Shown here one piece after another: positions 4,912-46,136 of a stretch of 46,247 nt of DNA. A model generated the notes under the pieces. The model had not been told where the DNA came from. It did not search any database and was given only the letters and a program-made list of their open reading frames with translations. The first letter of the stretch is position 1; every line of letters begins with the position of its first letter. Source of the stretch: Thermoplasmata archaeon (lineage in GTDB: Archaea; Thermoplasmatota; Thermoplasmata; Thermoplasmatales; Thermoplasmataceae); the NCBI GenBank assembly GCA_021821635.1, contig JAKACH010000005.1:1-46247 (forward strand), in the 5' to 3' direction. The translations under genes and the position numbers were made by a program.

Positions 4912-7900
4912 TTGGAACACTATTTTAAAAAAAGGGCTATTTTATCATTTATCCTGGTTATGCTAATGACAGCCACGGCAATACTGGGGACAATCTCGGC
5001 GCAGCATTATGGTGGGCCCCAATTAAGCGCCTCAGGAGGCATCGCTGATCAGTATACGGCGACAAACTTTTTCGGACCTATGCAGAAAATTACTGATTAT
5101 GCAAAAGGATGCATAGATCCTCTTATTAAGTTGAATAGTACAAGTCATCCTTACAATGGCACGGTGACCGTTGTAATAGGACTCAACCCGAGCAATGAGA
5201 CTTTGCTCAATCATTTTCTTTCTGCTTTAAACAATCCTTCATCGCCACTATATCATAAATATCTCACGAAGGATCAGTTCGATTTAATGTTTGGTGGTTC
5301 TAAGCCTGTCTATCAGGATCTTGTAGCATATCTGCACCAGAACGGAGTTACGGGCCTGGCCGAATTCTCTGACAGAATGGAAATTTCGTTCACTGCCTCT
5401 CCCAGCCAGGTGAGTAATATATTTGGAATTTCATTATCAAGTTTTAATTCCCCTATCGGATCTTATTTTGCTCCAACACGGACACCCTCATTGCCGGCTG
5501 AAATTGCTGGCTCCGTGTCAGGCATCGTGGGACTGTCCAACTATTCTGTACTGATGAACGAATACGCACCACTTGTGCTTCAAAAGGAACATGCAGTTCA
5601 TGCTCTTGGACAAAATGTCACAGTGAATGGTTTTCCGATACCGGTCAACTCAACGAGCGCTCAGTATCTTTATGGATCCGATATGCAGATAGCAATGCAG
5701 GAAAATACGCTTTTTGCCCAATTCGGATATCCCACAAACATGGTGGAGGCGACCATACTCTGGAGCGGCGAATATACCGGAACCACGAAACAAATAACAT
5801 CAACTGGAGGGCTAATCTCTCCTAATACAAACGTTGGTCCGTTTGTGCCTTCAGATATATACGCTTACTACAATGAAACCCTTCCACCTGGCGAGCCGCA
5901 TAGCAAGATCTACGCATACCCGATCAACGGTGCCCCTCTTCCAGGCATCAGGGCTTCATATGACTCGACCGGAGCTTATGTAGAGAACACCCTGGACCTG
6001 GAGATGCTGGGAAGCAGTGCTCCCGGGTCCTCAATCTACAACGTATACGGGAGCAACGCTTCCACCGTGAACCTTGTCGATGCCTTCAGCTCCATCCTGA
6101 ATCCACTTCCTGCATATTCCGCACTGGATAATGTTTCGGTGATATCCAACTCTTGGGGTGGGACAGATGGCAACTGTACCATATGGTATAATGATCTTCA
6201 AGAGGCCAATGCCAGAGGAATAACAGTCCTTGCTTCCAGCGGTGACGATGCCGACAGTTCTTCAAGCTCAGAGTACATAGGGTCCAATGTAAGCTTTCCA
6301 GCTTCAATGGCCTACAATAATTTTGGCATGGTGGCCGTCGGCGGTGTTTCTGTAACCCTGACCCACTCCCTTCAGATATCGTCGGAGACAAACTGGTATG
6401 AACCTGGATCAATCACAAATCTTTCAACCGTTGTTGGAACAACTTCCGGAATATCAAGCGTGTTTCCAGAACCAGACTGGCAGGTGAATTCTTCCGCCAA
6501 CTCTCTGATACAGGGACAGGGCAGGGGAGTCCCAGATATTTCCGCCCTGGCAAACAATACCATAATGACCATTAGTGTTAGCGGGTTCACTTACGATGCA
6601 ACCAACGCTTCTCAGGGTTACCCGTTCGAGGCTGTTGCCGGCACCAGCATAGCCTCTCCTCTGCTGGGTGGTGTAATAGCTGAAATTGATCATTCTATAG
6701 AGAGACAGGGCACCTCACCATTGGGATTTCTGGATCCGGTTCTTTACAGCATTGGCACTGCAGAGTATAATCCAATCTCGTACTCAACCGGCATAGGTCA
6801 TTACGGATCTGCTGCCTATAACACCTCCTTAGCGAACAGGCCTTACATGCCAGTAATATTCGGCCAGAACACGCTGTACACGGATAGATACGGTTACAGC
6901 CTCCTGAATGGATGGGGCACTATTAACGCTTATAATTTCACATCATTTGTGATAAACGACAACTTCACAATTATGTCAGGCCTTCTGGCCGGGATTACCG
7001 ATATAGTGAACCTTTCTAACATCAACGCAACATCATATCTTGCGGACGGAACAATCTTCAGCAGCTTTAATGCGTCAATACAGCAGGCTTTCTTCTTGGC
7101 TTCGAGCCTGGGCACACCGGCGTTCTTTGTGCAGGCGATCATACAGATATCGGGGATAAACGAAACAGGATTTGCGGGGAATTTTTCATTGCAGATCGAA
7201 ACGCCGTACATGGGTCTCTATCCTGATCTTGCAAGATATGAGTACAGATCCGCATCCATTTTTATTCCATGGGCAACAGCATTCAATATAACATCAATGC
7301 TTGACACAGCACCAGGTTATATCGGCAGCAGCATAATTTCACGCATTGGATCAGATATACTCTCTATGCCTGTTCCGGGTGCTTCTTACATCATAGGCAG
7401 GCTTCACTATGATTATTTTTACGGTGACTCTGTCGTTTCAATTGGGCCGAACGGACAAACAGGAATCCCGGGAACCTTCTCCCCCCAGTTCCTTGTGACC
7501 GGCGCACTTGCTGCAAAAGCAGGTGTTTTTGGTCCCGGCACGGGTGGAAGTGTTGTTCCGAGGCTACTGCCGTTCAAATCGCAGACATGGGTTGCCCCTG
7601 ACAGCAGCGTCATCGCCCTCCAGACCACTCAGACTGGATCGATAGGTGCGAATATAGCTTATTCTCCTTCAGGCAACGGAACATGGATATTCAGCTACCT
7701 TCAGAGAAGCCTTCAGCAGGGTATCTCTTCTTATGTCAAAGGCAACTATGTTGTTACATTCAACGAAACGGGCTTGCCTTCAGGCACTGCATGGCATGTT
7801 AATATCCTGGGTCTTCCACCTTCCCCTTCGATATCCACGAATGGATCGTATTCAGCAAATGTGACAGACGGTCCATATCAGTACAGCGCATATGCTTCAA

Positions 7901-8553
7901 ACCCGATTTACGCTCCGACAGATAACGGGACTTTTATCATAAACGGAGAAAATCTATCAATAACACTTCATTTTGAGAAGAAGCTCTACAGGGTGACATT
8001 TATTGAATCAGGCCTGCCTTCTGGCGTGACATGGTCTCTGGATATAAAAGGGATAATTAGCACTGGCCAGATCCACACAAATACTGTTTCCGTGAACCTT
8101 ACGAACGGGACATACAGCTACAATTTCTCCAGATCCAGCAACATATATACAGCAGCTCAGTTCTTTGGCACGTTCACGGTTAACGGGTCAGCCATATCCG
8201 TTCCGATTGAGTTCTTCAAGCTGAAATATAGCGTGAGCATCTCTGAATCCGGGCTCCCGGCAAACCAGAACTGGACAATTGTCTTCGACGGGGTAAAATA
8301 CAATCTTTCCAGCATCCCACTTGTGCTGTCTCTTACAAACGGAACCTATAACTTTACAGTATACAGCGTACCTGGATACAGGGTTGCACAGCCCTCAGGG
8401 ACCTTCGTAGTAAGCGGATCCGCCGCTTATCTGGTCATAGAATTTACCTCACCAAAAACCCTTGAGTATGAGATCGAGTTCGTTGTTGCTATCATAGCGA
8501 TGGTTCTTGTAGCTTCGTTTCTCTTCTATCTTCTTGTAAGGAAGAAAGTATAA
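4912..8553 (+). CDS. Secreted S53 (sedolisin/kumamolisin-type) serine-carboxyl peptidase with C-terminal ESGLP modules
   Basis: A 1213-aa acid peptidase acting outside the cell. TTG start at 4912, then a signal peptide or anchor (about residues 5-30). Next is a pro-kumamolisin-type activation domain (~80-215, with SSPLYHKYLTKDQF), then the catalytic domain (~255-680). The S53 catalytic set is visible: Glu358 and Asp362 (VENTLD), Asp445/446 in ASSGDDADSS (oxyanion acid) and Ser579 in AVAGTSIASPL. After a linker region come three ~78-aa modules (from ~946, ~1026 and ~1105), each opening like VTF-ESGLPSG--W, and a C-terminal membrane segment (~1186-1210) ending VRKKV. The enzyme is therefore probably tethered to the membrane. 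It is much longer than bacterial sedolisins because of the C-terminal part. It likely degrades protein in an acidic habitat. Confidence 0.93.
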   Translation: MEHYFKKRAILSFILVMLMTATAILGTISAQHYGGPQLSASGGIADQYTATNFFGPMQKITDYAKGCIDPLIKLNSTSHPYNGTVTVVIGLNPSNETLLNHFLSALNNPSSPLYHKYLTKDQFDLMFGGSKPVYQDLVAYLHQNGVTGLAEFSDRMEISFTASPSQVSNIFGISLSSFNSPIGSYFAPTRTPSLPAEIAGSVSGIVGLSNYSVLMNEYAPLVLQKEHAVHALGQNVTVNGFPIPVNSTSAQYLYGSDMQIAMQENTLFAQFGYPTNMVEATILWSGEYTGTTKQITSTGGLISPNTNVGPFVPSDIYAYYNETLPPGEPHSKIYAYPINGAPLPGIRASYDSTGAYVENTLDLEMLGSSAPGSSIYNVYGSNASTVNLVDAFSSILNPLPAYSALDNVSVISNSWGGTDGNCTIWYNDLQEANARGITVLASSGDDADSSSSSEYIGSNVSFPASMAYNNFGMVAVGGVSVTLTHSLQISSETNWYEPGSITNLSTVVGTTSGISSVFPEPDWQVNSSANSLIQGQGRGVPDISALANNTIMTISVSGFTYDATNASQGYPFEAVAGTSIASPLLGGVIAEIDHSIERQGTSPLGFLDPVLYSIGTAEYNPISYSTGIGHYGSAAYNTSLANRPYMPVIFGQNTLYTDRYGYSLLNGWGTINAYNFTSFVINDNFTIMSGLLAGITDIVNLSNINATSYLADGTIFSSFNASIQQAFFLASSLGTPAFFVQAIIQISGINETGFAGNFSLQIETPYMGLYPDLARYEYRSASIFIPWATAFNITSMLDTAPGYIGSSIISRIGSDILSMPVPGASYIIGRLHYDYFYGDSVVSIGPNGQTGIPGTFSPQFLVTGALAAKAGVFGPGTGGSVVPRLLPFKSQTWVAPDSSVIALQTTQTGSIGANIAYSPSGNGTWIFSYLQRSLQQGISSYVKGNYVVTFNETGLPSGTAWHVNILGLPPSPSISTNGSYSANVTDGPYQYSAYASNPIYAPTDNGTFIINGENLSITLHFEKKLYRVTFIESGLPSGVTWSLDIKGIISTGQIHTNTVSVNLTNGTYSYNFSRSSNIYTAAQFFGTFTVNGSAISVPIEFFKLKYSVSISESGLPANQNWTIVFDGVKYNLSSIPLVLSLTNGTYNFTVYSVPGYRVAQPSGTFVVSGSAAYLVIEFTSPKTLEYEIEFVVAIIAMVLVASFLFYLLVRKKV

Positions 8554-20185: not shown

Positions 20186-21964
20186 TTAGATAACAAACGC
20201 GAGGATGAGCACAAGCATGAACGCAACTATCATGTAAATCATGTACCAGGTTATTGAGCTGTTCATCACCCGGTATGCGAATTGCCTGGCAAATCTCCGA
20301 TATCCCGAGGCAAAAGACTGCATTGCGAACCAGAAAACGTCGACAACGCTCATCTGCCTGTTCCCATCGCGAATCCTGGTCCTGAGAATCCCCTTCAGCA
20401 TCAGTCGGATGTTGCTGGCATATGCGAATGAAGTGTAATATTGATCGAAATCCACGCCTCCATTCCATCTTGGCACTATTCTCAGTTTTCCTTTCCGTCT
20501 GTCAAATACCAGATATGCTGCCAAAGCAAAAAAGATGATTATGACAAGAACGTACAACGGCGATATCAGCCCAAAATCCGCGGCACTAAACTTCGACTGG
20601 ATTGTGAAACCATTGTATACAAGAACTGAAGGAAGCCCTGATATAAACTGCGGCTGAATGAGGAAATTGGCTAAGACGAAGAGCAGAATAAGGATCACTC
20701 CTGTCGAGAGCAGGACATACCCTTCAGAATTCTTCATGCTTCCCTTGGGATGACCATGAACCTGCGAGAATGAGAGTACCTTCATCATCGATGCTGATGC
20801 AAGGCCTTCTGCCAGCGCAATCATCGAACCTGCGACCACGCTCGCTATTCCTATCAAACCATACTGGTATGCACCCATGAAGAAGGATTCAAGCAGCATC
20901 CATGTGCCGAGCCCACCGATTGTCGGCAGTAAACCGGAAAGCGACATGGTGACAAGGAACCACCCAAGCGTCAGGAACGAATTTTTACTGCTGTCCACCT
21001 CGCTGAAATTCTCCTTTCTGGTTGTTCCAATTCCTATGAACAATCCGGTCTTAGCCACCGAATGGGCAAGTGCAAAAATCATTATCACTGCCAGCAGGTA
21101 AGTCTTTAGAACGCCTTCACCCAGGGCTACATACAGCCCGATGGCAGCCAAAATGGAGCCATTGTTTTCAATTGTGCTGAAACCGCCCAGCATCTTCATA
21201 TTCTCGGACACGTAGGCAAACAGTGCTGCAAAGAACACTGTAAGCACTCCCACCGCTAGCATGAAGAAGCCCAGATAGATTGAAGAAGGGCTGAGAAGCA
21301 TTATCCTGGCAATTCCGAATACCCCCATCAGTGTCATTGTAGCACTGAAAAGTGCGGAATCGTTCGCAGGTGCATTCCCATGTGCAATAGGGAGCCATTC
21401 GCTTATCATGAACGGGGTTATGCCCATCTTAGTCATGCAGCCGATTGCAATGAGAAGGAGCGGGAGATCTGACGTGAGGCTCTGGAAGCGGAAGTCCATG
21501 GTACCGGTCTCCTGAACAGCGAAGATGGCTCCTATTACCAGGAATACGGTGCTTATCTCGCTGAATACCATGAAAACATAAGCGGCATTCCAGTGCTCCT
21601 TGTTGAGGCCAATCGATGCATACGCTGGAATGGACATAATCTCCCAGCCTATGATGAAGGTCACATAATCTGAGGACTCCAGAATAACCATCATGCCGAA
21701 AACAGTCATTGCAAAAAGTGGTGTCAGCCATTTACCGTAACCGGCTGAGTAAGTCATCGAGAAGATAGAAATCAGAATCCATGCAATCGAAGCTATCAGA
21801 GAGAAATAGGCAAGGGGATAGGCAAGGTTTCCAGAACCAAGGAGGGTGAATACAGCCATCTCGAGTGATCCAGCAATCACGAGCGCATAGGATGCTTTCC
21901 TCCACCAGATCCCGACAGGCATTGCCACTGCGGTTATAAGCAGGGAAAAATAGACGGGATTCAT
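20186..21964 (-). CDS. Ehr-type complex: antiporter-like proton-channel subunit (HyfB/NuoL-like)
   Basis: 592-aa polytopic membrane protein of the Mrp/NuoL/NuoM/NuoN family. Family landmarks: IIGWEIMSIPAYASIG (the conserved channel glutamate), KMGITPFMISEWLPIAHGNA (TM7 lysine region, normally K-A--P-H-WLP-AH) and LAHSVAKTGLFIGIGTT (second lysine). The C-terminal extension (RRKGKLRIVPRWNGGVDFDQ plus two more membrane segments) is like HyfB. It should move protons or sodium ions as the hydrophilic arm turns over. Last gene of the operon; its ATG overlaps the stop of the small-subunit gene by 4 nt. Confidence 0.9.
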   Translation of the reverse strand: MNPVYFSLLITAVAMPVGIWWRKASYALVIAGSLEMAVFTLLGSGNLAYPLAYFSLIASIAWILISIFSMTYSAGYGKWLTPLFAMTVFGMMVILESSDYVTFIIGWEIMSIPAYASIGLNKEHWNAAYVFMVFSEISTVFLVIGAIFAVQETGTMDFRFQSLTSDLPLLLIAIGCMTKMGITPFMISEWLPIAHGNAPANDSALFSATMTLMGVFGIARIMLLSPSSIYLGFFMLAVGVLTVFFAALFAYVSENMKMLGGFSTIENNGSILAAIGLYVALGEGVLKTYLLAVIMIFALAHSVAKTGLFIGIGTTRKENFSEVDSSKNSFLTLGWFLVTMSLSGLLPTIGGLGTWMLLESFFMGAYQYGLIGIASVVAGSMIALAEGLASASMMKVLSFSQVHGHPKGSMKNSEGYVLLSTGVILILLFVLANFLIQPQFISGLPSVLVYNGFTIQSKFSAADFGLISPLYVLVIIIFFALAAYLVFDRRKGKLRIVPRWNGGVDFDQYYTSFAYASNIRLMLKGILRTRIRDGNRQMSVVDVFWFAMQSFASGYRRFARQFAYRVMNSSITWYMIYMIVAFMLVLILAFVI

Positions 21965-22596
21965 CTTTTACCCTCCCTGGCTCTTAATAATGCTTCCAGG
22001 ATTGTATAAGGGCTGGGAGGGCATCCTGCGATTTCTATTACTGAGTCCTTGGATAGATGCGGTCTCTTTCCAATAATACCTCCGCTTATGGCGCATGCGC
22101 CTAATGCAATGATGAGCTTCGGATCAGGCATTGCCTCAAATGCCCTGGATATCACCTGATCCATTCCCTCCGTATATACGCCCATAAGGACAAGGGCATC
22201 CGCATGTCTTGGTGTGTTGGTAAAGAATATGTTCAGCCTGCTAGCATCGAATTGGGGGGCAAGTATTGAGAGGAGCTCCGTGTTGCAGGCGCCGCAAGTT
22301 CCTGAATCCACCGGATAGAGGTAGAAGGATCTTGAAAGAATGCCTGGAAACTTACCGCTAACCCTGAAACTGCTCTGATCTCCTGTTGGCTTATAATCAG
22401 GAAGACAGAGCCGGCATGATATGCATTTTCCCGCATTCCACTTTCCCTGCTCTATGGCATTGGTTGGGCACTCAGGCGTGCCGTTACCAGCAAGCTTTGA
22501 GGGCCACAGTGGCGGTTCTTCGGGATGGGCTTTGGGGAATTTCTCCGTCTTCTTGCCGTTTCTGAGGCCCTTGAGAAACCATATTGTGGTCCTCAT
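21961..22596 (-). CDS. Ehr-type complex: small Fe-S subunit (NuoB/HyfI-like) with a fused ferredoxin-like cluster
   Basis: 211 aa. The core (about 95-205) has the four cysteines that hold the proximal [4Fe-4S] cluster next to the active site: C101 and C104 in GTCGACNTE, C168 in LGACAISGG and C192 in IAGCPPSPY. Ahead of it is C43 (PECPTNAI) plus C58-x2-C61-x2-C64 (GKCISCRLC), enough for one extra ferredoxin-type [4Fe-4S] cluster in the same chain. No separate ferredoxin subunit gene is present in the operon, so this N-terminal region may take its place. Neighbours overlap at both ends by 4 nt. Confidence 0.9.
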   Translation of the reverse strand: MRTTIWFLKGLRNGKKTEKFPKAHPEEPPLWPSKLAGNGTPECPTNAIEQGKWNAGKCISCRLCLPDYKPTGDQSSFRVSGKFPGILSRSFYLYPVDSGTCGACNTELLSILAPQFDASRLNIFFTNTPRHADALVLMGVYTEGMDQVISRAFEAMPDPKLIIALGACAISGGIIGKRPHLSKDSVIEIAGCPPSPYTILEALLRAREGKR

Positions 22597-23765
22597 TCTA
22601 TTTCCACCCCCGCCTCGGATATCCAGATTCCAAAACTCTCCCAGTTGAAGTGAAAATCGGTGAATATGTTTCCCTGCATCGACTGCTCAAAGGCGATGAT
22701 GTTTGAGACCGATGGAGAGCAGAATTCTATTCTTTCCACGCTGCCATTATTTATGGAAAGATAACAGAAGAGATCACCCTGGGGACTCTCCACCCGCGCA
22801 GCCCCAATGCCCGTTCCATGTATATTCATTAGGTTTGCTTGATCAGGTCTTCCATTCGAAATGATCTGATTAACTATCGCAAACGATGAGAAAATCTCAT
22901 TTCCCCTTACCAGAAATCTTGCGAAGGCGTCTTTTCCATCCTCAATGTATGGCTCAAAGCCATATCTGCCATAATCAAGGGAAGGGCTGTCGATCCTTGC
23001 ATCGTATTTATATCCGGCTGCCCTTGCGGCCGGTCCGACCAGCCAGACCTTCTCTATTTTTCCGTTACCCTGCAGCCTGTTGACAAATATCTTTGAATCC
23101 TGCAGACTCTCAAATAAGAGCGCAAAACGCGTCTCTATATCTTTTGTTCTGGTTACAATACCAGACGGTATCCTTACACTGGGTTTTGGCGTATTATGAA
23201 CACCAAAAAAGTACCTGTGGCCGAATATGGAGGAGATCACGCGAGTTACCTCTTCCCTCATCTGTGCAATCTGGTGATATGGAACCCCGAATCCTGCCGG
23301 TTCACATAGTCGCTCAAGCACGTTCAGGTGGCTTCTTATTCTCTCCAGTTCCATCTGAAGGATCAGTTCCTCATCAAGTCCAGTGTTCTGCTCCGTGAGC
23401 AGTGCGTCTTCAACAGCCTTTAAAAAGGCGGCCTGATAGGATGACGAATGATATCCATTAATTCTTTCGACCAGAATGAATGCGTCTTTCAGGCTAAGTC
23501 CAGATAATTTTATCGTTCTTAGCTTGTATGTCGGGTCAACGGCAACTGACCGGATCATTTCTCCAGGTGTCGAGAGAGCGATCCTGACAGACTCAATCAT
23601 CCCTCCGGTGGAAGGACCGTAATTGAAAACCAGTTCTCCAGGTATTATATCTGCAGGCTTCTTCTCAACCTTGACTGGAGAGTCGATAGAATCAGAATAT
23701 ATCGTATAACTTCTCGTCTGACCGATATATCTTCCATTTCCTCTTGCTGTCTTATAGTACTGCAT
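22593..23765 (-). CDS. Ehr-type complex: large subunit (NuoD/HyfG-like) lacking the Ni-Fe cysteines
   Basis: 390 aa, similar in plan to the large subunit of group 4 [NiFe] hydrogenases. N-terminal FNYGPSTGGMIESVRI matches the GP-HP--G opening. The first active-site motif, normally ERICGICS, is ERINGYHSSS, so both cysteines are replaced (N103, H106). The C-terminal DPC--C motif reads DFHFNW (H372, W375), so those two are also gone. The protein therefore cannot hold a NiFe centre and should not be a hydrogenase. MELERIRSHLNVLERL and IPSGIVTR are family features. It fits the Ehr class that links hydrogenases and complex I. No NuoC-like domain is obvious. Confidence 0.88.
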   Translation of the reverse strand: MQYYKTARGNGRYIGQTRSYTIYSDSIDSPVKVEKKPADIIPGELVFNYGPSTGGMIESVRIALSTPGEMIRSVAVDPTYKLRTIKLSGLSLKDAFILVERINGYHSSSYQAAFLKAVEDALLTEQNTGLDEELILQMELERIRSHLNVLERLCEPAGFGVPYHQIAQMREEVTRVISSIFGHRYFFGVHNTPKPSVRIPSGIVTRTKDIETRFALLFESLQDSKIFVNRLQGNGKIEKVWLVGPAARAAGYKYDARIDSPSLDYGRYGFEPYIEDGKDAFARFLVRGNEIFSSFAIVNQIISNGRPDQANLMNIHGTGIGAARVESPQGDLFCYLSINNGSVERIEFCSPSVSNIIAFEQSMQGNIFTDFHFNWESFGIWISEAGVEIE

Positions 23766-25098
23766 TATTCACCACCATGAAGAAAACGCCTATTGCCAGA
23801 GGCACAATAGATGCAACCAGAGCTACAGCGGGCATAAGCCTGCCCGGTTCACCGTCATCACCCGGTGACCCGAAAATCATCCTTGAAACGTTGAGGTTGA
23901 TACCTACAAACGCAAAAACAAGGGAAATAACGACCACTATGAACTGCGGTATTGCATTCACAAGAACCATTGAGTAGAGGATCAGAATTTCACCGAAAAA
24001 TGTCCCAAACGGGGGCGTCCCGGAAACTCCCAGGGATGACATAAGCAGCGCAGCGCTCGTAACCGGCATCTTTTTGGCCATACCCTTTACGCCAGCAACA
24101 TCCTTTTTACCTGTCGATCTTAGAACACTTCCTGATGAATAGAAGGCGCCGGCCTTGGAAAAGCTGTGTGAAATCAGAAGATAAAGTGCACCTGCAATGC
24201 CTATGGGATTCATTGTCGCTATTCCTATAAGAGCAAGGTTCATGTTCTCCATTGTTGAATAGGCGAACATCCTCTTGTATCTGGCCTGGTATCCCAGGAA
24301 CAGGGATGCAGCAGCTATAGAAACAGCTCCAAACCAGACAAAGAGTGAAGTTAACGGATCGATCTGGAAAATCCTGTAAAGGACGTAGAGTGCCGTGGGA
24401 AGCAGTACCCCAGAGAACATGGCACTGACCGGCGACGGCGCTTCACTATGCGCATCTGGAAGCCATGTGTGAACCGGAAAAACCCCTATCTTAGTTCCGA
24501 ATCCTATCAGTGCAATGGAAACTGCAACCCTGACAAATAGTGTGTTGGAAGTACCCAGGCCGAGAATAGTGGAAACCTCGAGCGTTCCAAATGAGTAGTA
24601 TATCAGGATGATGGATATGAATGCAAAAGTAACGCCTGCGGACACAATTATGATATACCGCCAGGTTGCCTCAAGGGATTCCTCACTCTTTTCGGTCATT
24701 ATGAGAAGGGCGGATGATATTGTTGTAGCCTCGATTCCAACCCACATTAGGCCGTAGTTGTTTACCTGCGCCGAAAACAGCATGGATACTGCAAACAGGT
24801 TCATGAGGAGGTAATAAGTCGGTTGCTTCAGACCGGTTGCATTCTGATCTGAAATGTATATGAGAGAATATATGCTGGAAAGCAGGTATATACTCGTTAT
24901 CATGATTATGAACACGTCTGTGGTCCGGTCAACAAAGAAGAAACCCTGAGGCGGCATTATCCAGAACAGCATAACGGAAAGCACTACATCGATCGATGCT
25001 GCAACAACAGTTGCCATTCTTATGTTGCGTAAATAAAATGCTGCGGCCATTCCAGGAATCAGCAGGAGAAGGATGGAGATCAGTGTACCCGGTGTCAT
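23752..25098 (-). CDS. Ehr-type complex: antiporter-like membrane subunit (HyfF/NuoN-like)
   Basis: 448-aa polytopic protein of the antiporter-like family. Landmarks: LMWVGIEATTISSALLI (channel Glu), GTKIGVFPVHTWLPDAHSEA (TM7 Lys plus the highly conserved P-H-WLPDAH), and LLISHSFSKAGAFYSSG (HS--KA). GTPPFGTFFGE lies near the C-terminal third. With the HyfB-like gene this gives the complex two ion-translocating modules. It overlaps the next gene upstream (HyfE-like) by 4 nt and the large-subunit gene by 14 nt. Confidence 0.92.
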   Translation of the reverse strand: MTPGTLISILLLLIPGMAAAFYLRNIRMATVVAASIDVVLSVMLFWIMPPQGFFFVDRTTDVFIIMITSIYLLSSIYSLIYISDQNATGLKQPTYYLLMNLFAVSMLFSAQVNNYGLMWVGIEATTISSALLIMTEKSEESLEATWRYIIIVSAGVTFAFISIILIYYSFGTLEVSTILGLGTSNTLFVRVAVSIALIGFGTKIGVFPVHTWLPDAHSEAPSPVSAMFSGVLLPTALYVLYRIFQIDPLTSLFVWFGAVSIAAASLFLGYQARYKRMFAYSTMENMNLALIGIATMNPIGIAGALYLLISHSFSKAGAFYSSGSVLRSTGKKDVAGVKGMAKKMPVTSAALLMSSLGVSGTPPFGTFFGEILILYSMVLVNAIPQFIVVVISLVFAFVGINLNVSRMIFGSPGDDGEPGRLMPAVALVASIVPLAIGVFFMVVNNAVL

Positions 25099-25736
25099 CC
25101 TCTCAACTCCTCCATTCTTTCGTGAGTGGCTTTCTCCACGGTAATGACCGATGATATGACAACCAGTGCAAGCACGTCAAGGAAAACGCTTGCCTCTATG
25201 ATTATTGGCACAGGAAGCAGGAAGAGTGCCAGCAAGACAAGGCCATTCTCTTCCTCGACGTAACCCACGATCTGCGTGTACGTGCTTCTTCTCGATGTAA
25301 TCAGGAAAAGGCCCTGAAAAAAGAGCAGCAGTGGAAAAAGAAGAGTAGAGGAGTCCCCGGTCTGGGAGATTGGAACCAGACTTGAGAATATTATAGAATA
25401 GATTATGAAAACCGCTATAACTATGAAAACCAGGTCCACAAGGAAGAGATATGGAACATTCACGCCCTCCTCAAAAACATAGCTTTTCCTCCTTGGCATA
25501 CGTGTTTCCAGCATATAGGTTATCAATATGCCGCGAAGTATCAGAATAAGAAGGCCAAGGATAAGGAGATCAATGGAACTCTCCATATAAGCCAAGAGAA
25601 AGGATGCGATTGCGATAAGAATCGACTGCACCAGCTGCCCTCTTATCATTGACATTATATACCGCTGCCCCTGGATATAGAAGGCGCTGACGAGAATCGA
25701 GGCGGAGATCAGGTAAACTATGGCGTTGTCGTTCAA
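25095..25736 (-). CDS. Ehr-type complex: HyfE/NuoK-like membrane subunit
   Basis: 213 aa with about six or seven membrane segments. Features of hydrogenase-4 component E: IRGQLVQSILIAI near the start, GYVEEENGLVLLALFL (the conserved Glu of the NuoK-like half) and ASVFLDVLALVVISSVI near the end. It should form part of the proton path between the NuoH-like subunit and the antiporter-like subunits. The ATG overlaps the stop of the NuoH-like gene by 4 nt, as do most junctions in this operon. Confidence 0.85.
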   Translation of the reverse strand: MNDNAIVYLISASILVSAFYIQGQRYIMSMIRGQLVQSILIAIASFLLAYMESSIDLLILGLLILILRGILITYMLETRMPRRKSYVFEEGVNVPYLFLVDLVFIVIAVFIIYSIIFSSLVPISQTGDSSTLLFPLLLFFQGLFLITSRRSTYTQIVGYVEEENGLVLLALFLLPVPIIIEASVFLDVLALVVISSVITVEKATHERMEELRG

Positions 25737-26677
25737 TGCATCACCTCGCTCAGAAGTAAAAATAAAATGGAAAATGTGAAAGCAACGGCAAGATAGTCTA
25801 GTATTTTGAAAAGCCTAACCTTTGCCAGCGTTGTTTCAATGATCATTACAATGAAGATGAGTAGGAGCCACTTTCCTATCATTACAGGCACATCCAGGAG
25901 GAAATACGGCGATGTGGAATAGAGACCCCATGGGAACAGGAAAACGTTAAGGAGTACTGATCCCAGGAGATATTGCTTCATGTACGATGACCATTTATTC
26001 ACGGCAAGCAGGCGTCCGCTGTACTCATAGTTGAGGGACTCATCAACCATGCCAAGTTCCTGCAGGCCGGAGCTTTCAAGCGGTATCTTCCCAGTTTCAT
26101 AGAGAAAAATCATGAAAAATGCAAGTGTTGCAAACACATGAACAAGCGTAATATTGGCAGACGGATTGGAAATCAGGTACTGGTTTGTAGTATATGGATT
26201 GTCTGTGGCTGTTATCAGGGATACTGCTATGAAGACGGTTATCAAAGCCCCTTCACCAAGAAAATTAAAGGATGCAAGCCGCGAGACGCCCATGGCAGCC
26301 AGGTTACTTCCAGAGTCCATGGCCGCAGCCATTTTAAGGAAGGCGGCAAATGAGAACAGGATGGCGCCTCCAAGGAAATCTGCACTTGCCGTGAATATAA
26401 CCGGCACCGGAATCAATACTGGAATTATCAGTGCAATAAGGCAGTATACACCGAATGCGACATATGGAACGAATCTGAATAATATCGAAGAACCCTCAGG
26501 AACAAGCGTTTCTTTCTTCAGGAGTTTGAAAAGATCATAATAAGGCTGAAATATGCTTGGCCCCTTCCTGGACTCGACTCTTGCCTTAAACCTGGCGAAA
26601 ATTCCGGCGAAAAGAGGGGCACATAGAATAACAAATATGAACTGAGTGGCGGTTTCCAGGAACAGTGTCAGCAACAT
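25733..26677 (-). CDS. Ehr-type complex: HyfC/NuoH-like membrane subunit
   Basis: 314-aa polytopic protein, first gene of the operon. FKARVESRKGPSIFQPYYDL is the hallmark cytoplasmic loop of this family (R-x-RKGP--Q-YYDL-KL). LYETGKIPLESSGLQELGMV matches the E-G-IP-D-----EL loop. It connects the Fe-S arm to the ion-pumping arm. The ATG is preceded by GGAGG 7 nt upstream and a ~70-nt leader, with a TATA-like TTTTATATAAG further up, so unlike many genes here it uses a leader and a Shine-Dalgarno site. Confidence 0.92.
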   Translation of the reverse strand: MLLTLFLETATQFIFVILCAPLFAGIFARFKARVESRKGPSIFQPYYDLFKLLKKETLVPEGSSILFRFVPYVAFGVYCLIALIIPVLIPVPVIFTASADFLGGAILFSFAAFLKMAAAMDSGSNLAAMGVSRLASFNFLGEGALITVFIAVSLITATDNPYTTNQYLISNPSANITLVHVFATLAFFMIFLYETGKIPLESSGLQELGMVDESLNYEYSGRLLAVNKWSSYMKQYLLGSVLLNVFLFPWGLYSTSPYFLLDVPVMIGKWLLLIFIVMIIETTLAKVRLFKILDYLAVAFTFSILFLLLSEVMH

Positions 26678-26683
26678 GATTAG

Positions 26684-26782
26684 CCTCCAGTAAGCTAGGC
26701 GTCATCAGCCAGAGCTGGCGGTTTGGTCATGTGGAAACGCCATTCCACGACGCCCGGATATGTATGATTCTTATATAAAATT
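26684..26782 (-). promoter_or_regulatory. Promoter and structured leader of the Ehr operon
   Basis: Reading on the minus strand: a TATA-like TTTTATATAAG (~26,771-26,781), then a ~70-nt leader containing inverted repeats. GTGGAA (26731-26736) pairs with TTCCAC (26743-26748), and a GGCGT/ACGCC pair can form a larger stem. GGAGG lies just before the ATG at 26677. It could be a regulatory leader or an operator. It matches no riboswitch class I can name. Confidence 0.5.
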
Positions 26783-42772: not shown

Positions 42773-43893
42773 GAGGTTTTCCTAAAACCTTCACTTCAAC
42801 CTTATATCTTTCTTGATTCCTGTAAAATCAACCTTAATCAAGAATATTGTGTGAAGCATGGTGTGTTTTACTATGTTTATACATCCATTTTCTCCTAAAT
42901 TTCCATAGCTTACGCTGTCCGGTCAAGAAATCTTGACCTTACAAGGTTGTAACAAATAGCAGTAAAATATGTCTTTACTCTCACCCTCTGCACAGTTGTT
43001 ACCATTACATGGCCAAAGCGGAACATCCTCTTGAAGAATGCATAGGGATGTTCCACCATGGATCGAATGCGGGATATTCGGAGATTCCTGCGTATGCTCT
43101 TCATGGGAAGTGAATGTCCCCTTACGGATCGATCCATTGTGCCATTGATCCCTTTGCAATCGGATCCGAAATAACCCTTATCCCGGTAACATATGATTCC
43201 TGGAAGACTGAGATCGATCTGCGAATCATGCACGTTCGCAGGCGTTACTGATAATTTTTCAATTATCTTTATCTCATTGACAAGGGTATGCGCCTTGTAG
43301 CCGAAGTGATGCTCATTATTCTTTGTCGCCGATGATCCATCCTTAGATCTGCGTGTATTGGCATCATCACCCCTTGGCTTTCCATACTCTCCCTTATCTG
43401 CCTCTATGAAGGAAGCGTCTTGCATATTGCCCTTCTTGATTCTGATTCGTTTCGCCATGATCTGGTCTCTTATCTCGTTGAAAACGAGACGATCCTTTCC
43501 TGTTTTCGATAATCGTTCACGGAAATAACAGATTGTGTTCCGGTCGGGTAATTTCTCAGGATATCCCAGGAAATTAAGGAACGATATCCGATCCCTGATT
43601 TCACGTTCCACCTGCGGATCTGAGAGATTGTACCACTGTTGCAGTAAAAGAATCTTCACCATCAGGATGGGATCATAATTTGGTCTTCCACCCTTTTCCG
43701 TATAATTCTCATAGAGATCTGACAATATTGGCCTTATCCGTTCGAAATCAATGCGATCAGATATGCCGGTTAAGGGATCGCCAAGTGTTTCAATCTCCTT
43801 GTATAGTTCGGATAATCCGGTGTGGTAAAGGTTCATAGATATTGATCATGAGGTCATGAAAAAGGTTTTCGGTGATGGTTTTTGGAAATCCTC
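42773..43893 (-). mobile_element. IS5-family-type insertion sequence, apparently complete
   Basis: One transposase gene flanked by terminal inverted repeats. The left end begins GAGGTTTTCCTAAAACCTTC (42773), and the right end read inward from 43893 begins GAGGATTTCCAAAAACCATC. They match at 19 of the first 22 positions. Size is ~1.12 kb. I see no clear target-site duplication at 42772/43894. The element sits between amt and the right copy of the tRNA-Val repeat. Confidence 0.8.
42910..43836 (-). CDS. IS5-type DDE transposase
   Basis: 308 aa, intact. The N-terminal DUF772-like region (GGRPNYDPILMVKILLLQQW, SFLNFLGYPEKLPDRNTICY) is followed by a DDE catalytic core: D140 in MQDASFIEAD, D219 in CYRDKGYFGSD and E262 in SMVEHPYAFFKRMF (the Y-(2)-R-(3)-E-type region with HP-A--K). 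HHFGYKAHTLVN is the usual strand before the second acid. It cuts and joins the IS ends. No frameshift or stop, so the element may still be active. Confidence 0.92.
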   Translation of the reverse strand: MNLYHTGLSELYKEIETLGDPLTGISDRIDFERIRPILSDLYENYTEKGGRPNYDPILMVKILLLQQWYNLSDPQVEREIRDRISFLNFLGYPEKLPDRNTICYFRERLSKTGKDRLVFNEIRDQIMAKRIRIKKGNMQDASFIEADKGEYGKPRGDDANTRRSKDGSSATKNNEHHFGYKAHTLVNEIKIIEKLSVTPANVHDSQIDLSLPGIICYRDKGYFGSDCKGINGTMDRSVRGHSLPMKSIRRNLRISRIRSMVEHPYAFFKRMFRFGHVMVTTVQRVRVKTYFTAICYNLVRSRFLDRTA

Positions 43894-44839: not shown

Positions 44840-46136
44840 CCTACCTCTTCAGGGGTGGGATGAAAGCGAACACACATCTTTAATGATTGCAAAGCAATTG
44901 CATAAATAGCATGTTCAAAGCCTATAAGTTCCGATTGTATCCTGATGAGGAACAGCAACTTCTCCTGGAAAAGCACTTTGGATCATGTAGGTTTGTATGG
45001 AATCATTTTCTTGATTCCAGTAACAAGAGATACGTTGAAACTGGCAAAGGGATGAGTTACAAGGATGCGTCGGTTCTCCTTCCCGCATTGAAGGAAGAAA
45101 GGGAGTGGTTGAACGAGGTCAATTCACAAAGCCTGCAACAGGAATTGATGCATCTTGACAGTGCATTTCATGGATTCTTCAGGAAGATTTCAGGATATCC
45201 CGCCTTCAGGAAAAAAAGAAACGGTGGTTCATTCACGGTTCCCCAGCATTTCACCATTAAGGACAATCATCTTACAATCCCTAAGTTCAAGACCCCATTG
45301 CGTCTCTTCATGCACAGGAACATTGAAGGTGAAATGAGAAGCCTCACCATATCAAAGACGCCATCGGGTAAATATTATGCCTCAATACTCGCTGAGACCG
45401 GAAAGAAAATACCTGGACCTGTAAGGATTGAAGCATGTACATCCATTGGCATTGATGTCGGCATAAAGGTATTCCTCACGACATCGGATGGATTGCAAAT
45501 TGACAATCCCAAAAATCTCAAGAAATCGGAAAAGAAACTGGCGTTATTGCAGAAGAGGCTCTCCCGAAAGCAGAAAGGATCAAAAAACATGAATAAGGCA
45601 AGAATCAAGGTTGCAACAGCGCAGGAACACATAGCAAACCAGAGAATGGATTTCCACAACAAGGTATCAGATGCAATGCTCAGGGCATATGACACCGTAA
45701 TAACGGAAGACCTGAACGTTTCGGGCATGATGAAGAACCATCATCTCGCAAGGAGCATAGCAGATGCAGGATGGTCGTCTTTCATGGCAATGCTGAAAAC
45801 CAAGGCATTGCAGAGAGGTAAGAGCATAATAGATATAGGAAGGTTCGATCCTTCATCAAGGATGTGCTCCCATTGTGGATATACCTACAACCTGAAACTC
45901 AGTGAGAGGAAATGGATCTGCCCGCAATGCAATACCGCACATGATAGGGAATGGAATGCCGCAAAAAACATAAAGCAGTTCGGTCTCATAAAGACCGGAA
46001 TACCCACGGACAGTGGGGAATTAACGCCTGTGGACAGGAGTATGGATACCCTGATCTTTCTCGCAAGGGAGGGAATAGGGCAGGTACACTGGCTGAAACA
46101 GGAAGCCCACGCTCTTTAGGCGTGGGAGGATGTCAC
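44840..46136 (+). mobile_element. IS200/IS605-superfamily element with tnpB only (IS1341-like)
   Basis: Left-end hairpin at 44840-44859 (CCTACCTC pairing with GGGGTGGG through G-U pairs, loop TTCA). Right-end hairpin at 46106-46126 (CCCACGC and GCGTGGG), followed by AGGATGTCAC ending at 46136, a typical right-end form for archaeal tnpB elements. No tnpA (Y1 transposase) gene is present, so it cannot move on its own. Exact left boundary and target motif are not resolved. Confidence 0.65.
44911..46119 (+). CDS. tnpB: TnpB, RNA-guided RuvC nuclease of a transposon
   Basis: 402 aa from ATG 44911 (MFKAYKFRLYPDEEQQ); a TTG at 44887 in frame would add eight unrelated residues. RuvC catalytic acids all present: D182 (IGIDVGIK), E266 (VITEDLNVSG) and D345 (AHDREWNAAKN). 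Zinc ribbon cysteines C319, C322, C337 and C340 (CSHCG and CPQC) lie between the second and third acids, as normal for TnpB. GRFDPSSRMCSHCG is the usual linker. The nuclease cuts DNA matching a guide next to a target motif, helping the transposon persist. The stop codon lies in the loop of the right-end hairpin. Confidence 0.93.
   Translation: MFKAYKFRLYPDEEQQLLLEKHFGSCRFVWNHFLDSSNKRYVETGKGMSYKDASVLLPALKEEREWLNEVNSQSLQQELMHLDSAFHGFFRKISGYPAFRKKRNGGSFTVPQHFTIKDNHLTIPKFKTPLRLFMHRNIEGEMRSLTISKTPSGKYYASILAETGKKIPGPVRIEACTSIGIDVGIKVFLTTSDGLQIDNPKNLKKSEKKLALLQKRLSRKQKGSKNMNKARIKVATAQEHIANQRMDFHNKVSDAMLRAYDTVITEDLNVSGMMKNHHLARSIADAGWSSFMAMLKTKALQRGKSIIDIGRFDPSSRMCSHCGYTYNLKLSERKWICPQCNTAHDREWNAAKNIKQFGLIKTGIPTDSGELTPVDRSMDTLIFLAREGIGQVHWLKQEAHAL

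Follow-up and report, generated by a model that had tools for sequence, protein, structure and literature searches.

What does a membrane-bound complex built like a hydrogenase do once its hydrogen site is gone, and why does it stand behind a sensor for fluoride? The question is raised by a six-gene operon on the minus strand, at 20186-26677, of a 46,247-nucleotide (nt) stretch from a Thermoplasmata archaeon (assembly GCA_021821635.1, contig JAKACH010000005.1, positions 1 to 46,247; the whole stretch is called the window here). The operon encodes an energy-converting hydrogenase-related (Ehr) complex, a class that is already known (Coppi 2005; Marreiros 2013; as described in PMC4378227, PMC6349859, PMC10432482). 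All four Ni-Fe ligands of its large subunit are lost, the operon leader carries a fluoride riboswitch (crcB motif, RF01734), and the two features are coupled in one clade of archaeal and bacterial complexes. With moderate confidence, we propose that the product of the operon, an Ehr complex, is inducible by fluoride, translocates H+ and belongs to the fluoride response of mostly acidophilic archaea without the channel protein CrcB.

An Ehr operon without Ni-Fe ligands

The six open reading frames (Table 1) fall into families on which Pfam and NCBIfam agree, and in the order given in an earlier note made from the sequence of this stretch: NuoH-like, HyfE-like, HyfF-like, large, small and HyfB-like. 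That note described most junctions as 4-nt overlaps; four of the five are, and the HyfF/large junction is an overlap of 14 nt. Wherever the contig spans the operon, the same gene order recurs in 19 related loci that a genome scan found in Thermoplasmata and in two Micrarchaeota metagenome-assembled genomes (MAGs). In a maximum-likelihood tree with group 4 hydrogenases, Ehr and complex I, the large subunit lies inside the Ehr clade (100/100); the sister group of that clade is Hyc/Hyf (97/90), and complex I branches separately. Loss of the NiFe cysteines is what defines Ehr (PMC4378227, PMC6349859), and the subunit set, the absence of these cysteines and the grouping of the large subunit all place the complex in this class, so that reading frames, families, relatives and tree bear out the earlier assignment. 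At close range the large subunit changes faster than the other five, and overall it is among the most divergent, with 39-79% identity between the window protein and its relatives, compared with 59-94% for the NuoH-like subunit.

The former cysteine positions are N103, H106, W381 and E384. HycE C241 and C244 align with N103 and H106, and three MAFFT modes, run on an alignment that includes HycE of E. coli and a genuine hydrogenase from Azospirillum, place HycE C531 on W381 and C534 on E384. The earlier note was thus right that all four cysteines are gone, and right about N103 and H106. Its other two positions, H372 and W375, came from reading DFHFNW as the C-terminal DPCxxC, a register refuted by ungapped alignment to HycE, MbhL and the Azospirillum hydrogenase: D370 instead matches MbhL D363, the Asp of "AD(L)", nine residues before the Asp of "DPCxxC". 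The Ni-Fe ligands of MbhL include C374 and C377 (PMC11228991). The Asp of DPC is lost too, its place being taken by G379, and the Glu of the complex I "FGEIDR" motif falls on E384. An AlphaFold model of the large subunit (pLDDT 86, pTM 0.90) has HycE as its best fold match (Z 42.2), complex I also being matched, and its structural alignment to HycE ends at 387/537, in the same register as W381/E384. E58 is the equivalent of the proton-donor Glu (MbhL E21, HycE E193) and is kept in nearly all Ehr examined. Assignment to NuoD of complex I fails, with H38 and Y87 of the Nqo4 quinone site aligning with I57 and G104 and the protein falling in the wrong clade; a true complex I NuoD is encoded elsewhere in the genome.

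This register bears directly on the suggestion of a new cofactor or quinone site made by two histidines at former cysteine positions. Most Thermoplasmata members retain H106, and H372 lies in a stretch, TDFHFNWESFGIW, that is identical among the closest relatives. H372 is not a former cysteine position, and whether it faces H106 is therefore moot; moreover, Phe replaces H372 in related genera (L030-L038) and H106 in Micrarchaeota and L039, so a conserved two-His site is unsupported. The related proposal of a sulfur reductase like MBS meets the difficulty that MBS keeps two of the four cysteines (MbsL C85 and C385) and has no equivalent of E21 (PMC7684303), the reverse of the window complex, which has no cysteine at any of the four positions and keeps E58. 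Either version is very unlikely.

The literature offers a different reading, that of a fluoride-induced, formate hydrogenlyase-like hydrogenase serving an anaerobic, H2-evolving shift. The crcB motif was noted before "formate hydrogen lyase" genes in 2010 (PMC2864571), a 2024 review of fluoride biology still reads the riboswitch-linked genes as formate oxidation (PMC11139923), and the homology to HycE points the same way. Neither the four NiFe ligands nor the DPC Asp survive, however, and both CxxC motifs of a group 4 [NiFe] hydrogenase are gone with them. The large subunit also stops 3 residues past the HycE maturation site R537, leaving no cleavable C-terminal extension, and the operon contains no formate dehydrogenase. 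Among the hydrogenase maturation genes, HypD was tested: none is found in the window genome (80% complete) or in any of 24 near-complete genomes with such an Ehr. We give this reading almost no credence. Judged by their predicted proteins, the "formate hydrogen lyases" behind fluoride riboswitches are not Ni-Fe hydrogenases in any of the linked loci examined.

Some clade members depart from this picture in detail. In L042 and L046 a single Cys takes the place of N103 (ERYCGPL), and the remaining three sites hold other residues. In L040 (genome G180) the large subunit is split between two reading frames, which points to decay of the copy or to an error of assembly.

The fluoride riboswitch and its coupling to Ehr

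The RF01734 aptamer, which is the main clue to function and was overlooked in the earlier note, starts just after a TATA-like element and ends 11 nt before the ATG of the first gene. The spacing of the TATA-like element would place the transcription start close to base 1 of the aptamer. The 3' end of the aptamer (GACGCCU) can pair with the ribosome-binding region in a duplex of -6.7 kcal/mol; this pairing may form the expression platform, in a manner consistent with an ON switch. The leader block is conserved well past the point at which the coding sequences have diverged, the stem around ATGGCGTT covaries among relatives, and each of the 18 genome-scan loci whose contig reaches the leader has an RF01734 match there, some of them under the gathering score. 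Taken by itself, the leader has a weak folding-energy z-score (-1.19), and the case for a riboswitch therefore rests on the Rfam model and the comparative evidence.

This coupling extends across the phylum. Among 293 Thermoplasmatota genomes, 34 of which encode a large subunit of this clade, RF01734 is found in 33 of the 34 and in 20 of the 259 others (Fisher P 1.4e-28, a value that counts related genomes as independent and so overstates the number of separate events). At 30 of 36 loci the aptamer shares the strand of the large subunit and precedes it by 2844-3299 nt, a place just ahead of the NuoH-like gene. The six loci without a placed RF01734 include one G210 copy on a short contig. Sub-threshold matches stand at the expected distance in G183 and G154 (2897 and 3250 nt), and in G282 the riboswitch precedes a NuoH-like gene on another contig; the 36-locus check found no RF01734 for G134 or for one G207 copy. 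In genus g4, four genomes without the Ehr have no RF01734 and the Ehr-bearing congener G096 has it. The two Micrarchaeota MAGs (L016, L018) carry both operon and riboswitch (58 bits in L018), possibly through gene transfer or a binning error.

The same clade includes large subunits from Mycobacterium branderi, Alicyclobacillus, two Burkholderia and a Caballeronia plasmid, with RF01734 ahead in all five. Archaeal and bacterial riboswitch-linked Ehr form a single clade (100/99) nested within Ehr; the label was assigned by clade and so covers L041, with no riboswitch detected, and L048, with a sub-threshold match. No RF01734 was found at the S-type Ehr loci of Allomeiothermus, Methylovirgula, Paraburkholderia, Rhodococcus and B. 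stagnalis. The Burkholderia copies are embedded in islands that hold crcB, inorganic pyrophosphatase, DUF190 and MutS genes besides; a CLC with the GNN motif is present in one of these islands.

CrcB stands immediately behind the aptamer in G004, G216 and G047, three Thermoplasmatota genomes that have the riboswitch and not this Ehr. In the Ehr-rich set none of 41 genomes has a CrcB over the cut-off. Within genus g21 the two alternate: G219, G248 and G154 have the Ehr and G004 and G216 have CrcB, with the riboswitch preceding the Ehr in G219 and G248 and CrcB in the other two. Such alternation behind one sensor would be expected if the complex itself extruded F- or HF, as an energy-driven stand-in for CrcB and CLC-F in which F- passes through the vacated NiFe chamber or through the channels of the antiporter-like subunits. 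Six genomes (G034, G068, G227, G282, G219, G248) fit this idea in having neither a CrcB over the cut-off nor a CLC match, as does the window genome, whose CLC lacks the GNN motif of the Burkholderia island CLC; no CLC match lies at a riboswitch, and we rejected CLC as the riboswitch-controlled exporter. The M. branderi complex, retained despite the loss of its proximal-cluster cysteines (see below), points the same way. The pump residues are nevertheless of the H+ antiporter-like type, with no recognisable fluoride-binding motif, and the Burkholderia islands hold CrcB, in one case together with a GNN-type CLC, beside the Ehr, which is then not simply the exporter there. Other, unrecognised exporters may also exist. 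We consider direct F- export improbable, and we would make the same judgement of its wider form, in which the clade would be a new redox-powered class of fluoride resistance within the complex I superfamily, extruding F-/HF directly or by H+ exchange and replacing CrcB/CLC-F in acidophiles, in which passive F- channels would perform badly.

The riboswitch has other neighbours as well. A second target in Thermoplasmata (L089-L094, L101) looks like a tandem of two genes of ~500 amino acids (aa); both tandem genes in L089 carry MutS domain V, like the tandem MutS pair of the Burkholderia fluoride island. In other families of the order (L095-L098) the riboswitch precedes ~120-aa coiled-coil-like genes, with an MFS transporter next in L095. 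The Alicyclobacillus sp. ALC3 plasmid (L054) has six fluoride riboswitches in 19 kb, with CrcB and DUF190 genes, and no annotated Ehr partners adjoin its large subunit.

Electron path, proton channels and proposed role

The small subunit retains C101, C104, C168 and C192 of the proximal cluster, as the earlier note had stated, and they are invariant in 20 relatives. The note missed a second motif, C43, C58, C61 and C64 (CP...CxxCxxC), which is predicted to form one [4Fe-4S] site of a trimmed ferredoxin domain. This N-terminal motif is present in the aligned Thermoplasmata members and absent from the Micrarchaeota copies; from residue 82 onward, the model of the subunit matches HycG and the PSST subunit of complex I. 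In the antiporter-like arm, HyfF keeps E123, K203 and E370 in transmembrane helices TM5, TM7 and TM12 (mapped on E. coli NuoM), and HyfB keeps E108 (TM5) and K179 (TM7) (mapped on NuoM/NuoL). The TM5 Glu and TM7 Lys, together with the TM12 Glu of HyfF, are conserved in all relatives compared. Outside the operon no gene is conserved beyond close relatives, so that no extra redox partner can be assigned. Two plasmid-borne small subunits have lost all four proximal-cluster cysteines, those of M. branderi (L053:10132-10926; TGSNGSDEWE / GTDA / GAPAS) and Allomeiothermus silvanus (L055:10092-10964; AGNTGLDDTE / GNEA / GSPAR). Both retain the N-terminal CxxCxxC and belong to complexes without an N2-type cluster.

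An intact iron-sulfur (Fe-S) chain would also suit a redox complex, a ferredoxin:quinone oxidoreductase or one with another acceptor, that re-routes electrons when fluoride blocks metabolism through enolase inhibition, H+ pumping then being incidental. Enolase adjoins the M. branderi Ehr and pyrophosphatase is found in the Burkholderia islands, both being fluoride-sensitive enzymes. Yet no conserved metabolic partner gene stands beside the archaeal operon, the antiporter-like subunits keep their key residues, and the proximal cluster is lost in M. branderi itself. We regard electron re-routing as credible but unlikely.

A fluoride-induced proton pump fits best because there is a fluoride sensor in front of the operon, the Fe-S chain and proton channels are intact and there is no hydrogenase site. 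These features suggest that the complex helps cells to withstand fluoride, probably by expelling protons, rather than producing H2. External hydrogen fluoride (HF), fully protonated at low pH, would diffuse in and dissociate to H+ and F- in the cytoplasm; F- would bind the leader aptamer, free the ribosome-binding site and turn the operon on. Electrons, probably from reduced ferredoxin, would pass through the N-terminal [4Fe-4S] site and the proximal cluster to an acceptor in the former NiFe chamber, most likely a membrane quinone, with E58 as proton donor. With this flow as its driving force, the NuoH/HyfF/HyfB arm would export H+, so that cytoplasmic pH and the proton-motive force recover. 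The ferredoxin feed is suggested by a pyruvate:ferredoxin oxidoreductase-type (ferredoxin-reducing) family in 18 of 18 genomes, and quinone is the probable electron sink because cytochrome bd occurs in 17 of the 18. The membrane potential of extreme acidophiles is often reversed, which would make Fluc (CrcB) channels ill suited to them. These channels rely on a potential that is positive outside; HF is the form in which fluoride gets into the cell, where it makes the cytoplasm more acid and reduces the proton-motive force that exporters need, and the cellular response includes extrusion of H+ (PMC11139923).

Several points weigh against the proton-pump reading. Pumping H+ would not by itself remove F-. 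Induction by fluoride, the electron donor and acceptor, the direction of pumping and the benefit to the cell are all inferred. Of the 20 other genomes in the phylum that carry the riboswitch, 17 likewise have no CrcB, and little can therefore be concluded from a missing CrcB by itself. No riboswitch was detected at L041, a few other loci have weak matches, and the related genomes behind the coupling statistic are not independent. Finally, the loss of the proximal-cluster cysteines in M. branderi means that redox coupling may not be clade-wide.

Near the right end of the window lie an IS605 OrfB/TnpB-type gene (44887-46119) and a DDE transposase (42910-43836). The 1213-aa product of 4912-8553 has a pro-kumamolisin activation domain and is a probable acid protease.

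Table 1. Operon subunits and leader elements, in window coordinates
Feature	Coordinates	Strand	Evidence
TATA-like element ttttatataa, probable operon promoter	26771..26780	-	Read from sequence
Fluoride riboswitch aptamer, crcB motif RF01734	26689..26756	-	Rfam cmscan 39.7 bits, gathering 34, E 1.2e-7
Ribosome-binding site GGAGG	26684..26688	-	Read from sequence
NuoH/HyfC-like membrane subunit, first gene	25733..26677	-	Pfam PF00146 E 5.6e-31
HyfE-like membrane subunit, TTG start	25095..25736	-	NCBIfam NF008556 E 1.4e-8, under its cut-off; position conserved in relatives
HyfF-like antiporter subunit	23752..25098	-	NF005042 E 4.9e-180
Large (NuoD/HycE-like) subunit without Ni-Fe ligands	22593..23765	-	PF00346 E 3.7e-22; alignments; fold match
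Small (NuoB/HycG-like) subunit	21961..22596	-	PF01058 E 1.2e-20; Cys conservation
HyfB-like antiporter subunit	20186..21964	-	NF005046 E 3.6e-191

Relation to known complexes

The window complex shares with the Ehr class a group 4-like set of six subunits, the lost NiFe cysteines, an Fe-S small subunit and antiporter-like subunits. Its subclade differs in having N, H, W and E at the former cysteine positions, where other Ehr are of the S-x-S-G type, in the fluoride riboswitch ahead of the operon and in the [4Fe-4S] domain fused to the small subunit. The E. coli Hyc and Hyf complexes (formate hydrogenlyases FHL-1 and FHL-2) are close in fold and in the tree, but have the four cysteines, the DPC Asp, a cleavable extension and hyp genes, none of which the window complex has (HypD being the hyp gene tested). 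MBS is likewise a pumping complex that has lost NiFe cysteines and sets a precedent for catalysis at the proximal cluster (PMC7684303). The "putative hydrogenase 4" of acid-mine Thermoplasmatales is a complex of the same type from the same organism lineage, and its lack of both Ni-binding motifs is already on record; the accessible part of that paper mentions neither a riboswitch nor fluoride (PMC3750248). The "formate hydrogen lyase" genes likewise have RF01734 in the 5' leader of HycE/HyfB-like genes (PMC2864571, PMC11139923), but that name implies formate-oxidising enzymes, whereas the linked loci examined here are without NiFe ligands.

What is apparently new is the joining of these two strands: the riboswitch-linked complexes examined are a distinct, NiFe-less Ehr clade and apparently belong to the fluoride response of CrcB-less archaea. 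We did not find them described as such in the accessible literature, and an earlier explicit link between Ehr and fluoride is possible. The finding suggests that the enzyme often listed in the fluoride regulon as "formate hydrogenlyase" carries the wrong name. Ehr complexes occur widely; a clade-wide fluoride sensor provides a physiological handle, through fluoride and acid stress, that makes their function directly testable, and it may explain how CrcB-less archaea cope where fluoride is present as fully protonated HF.

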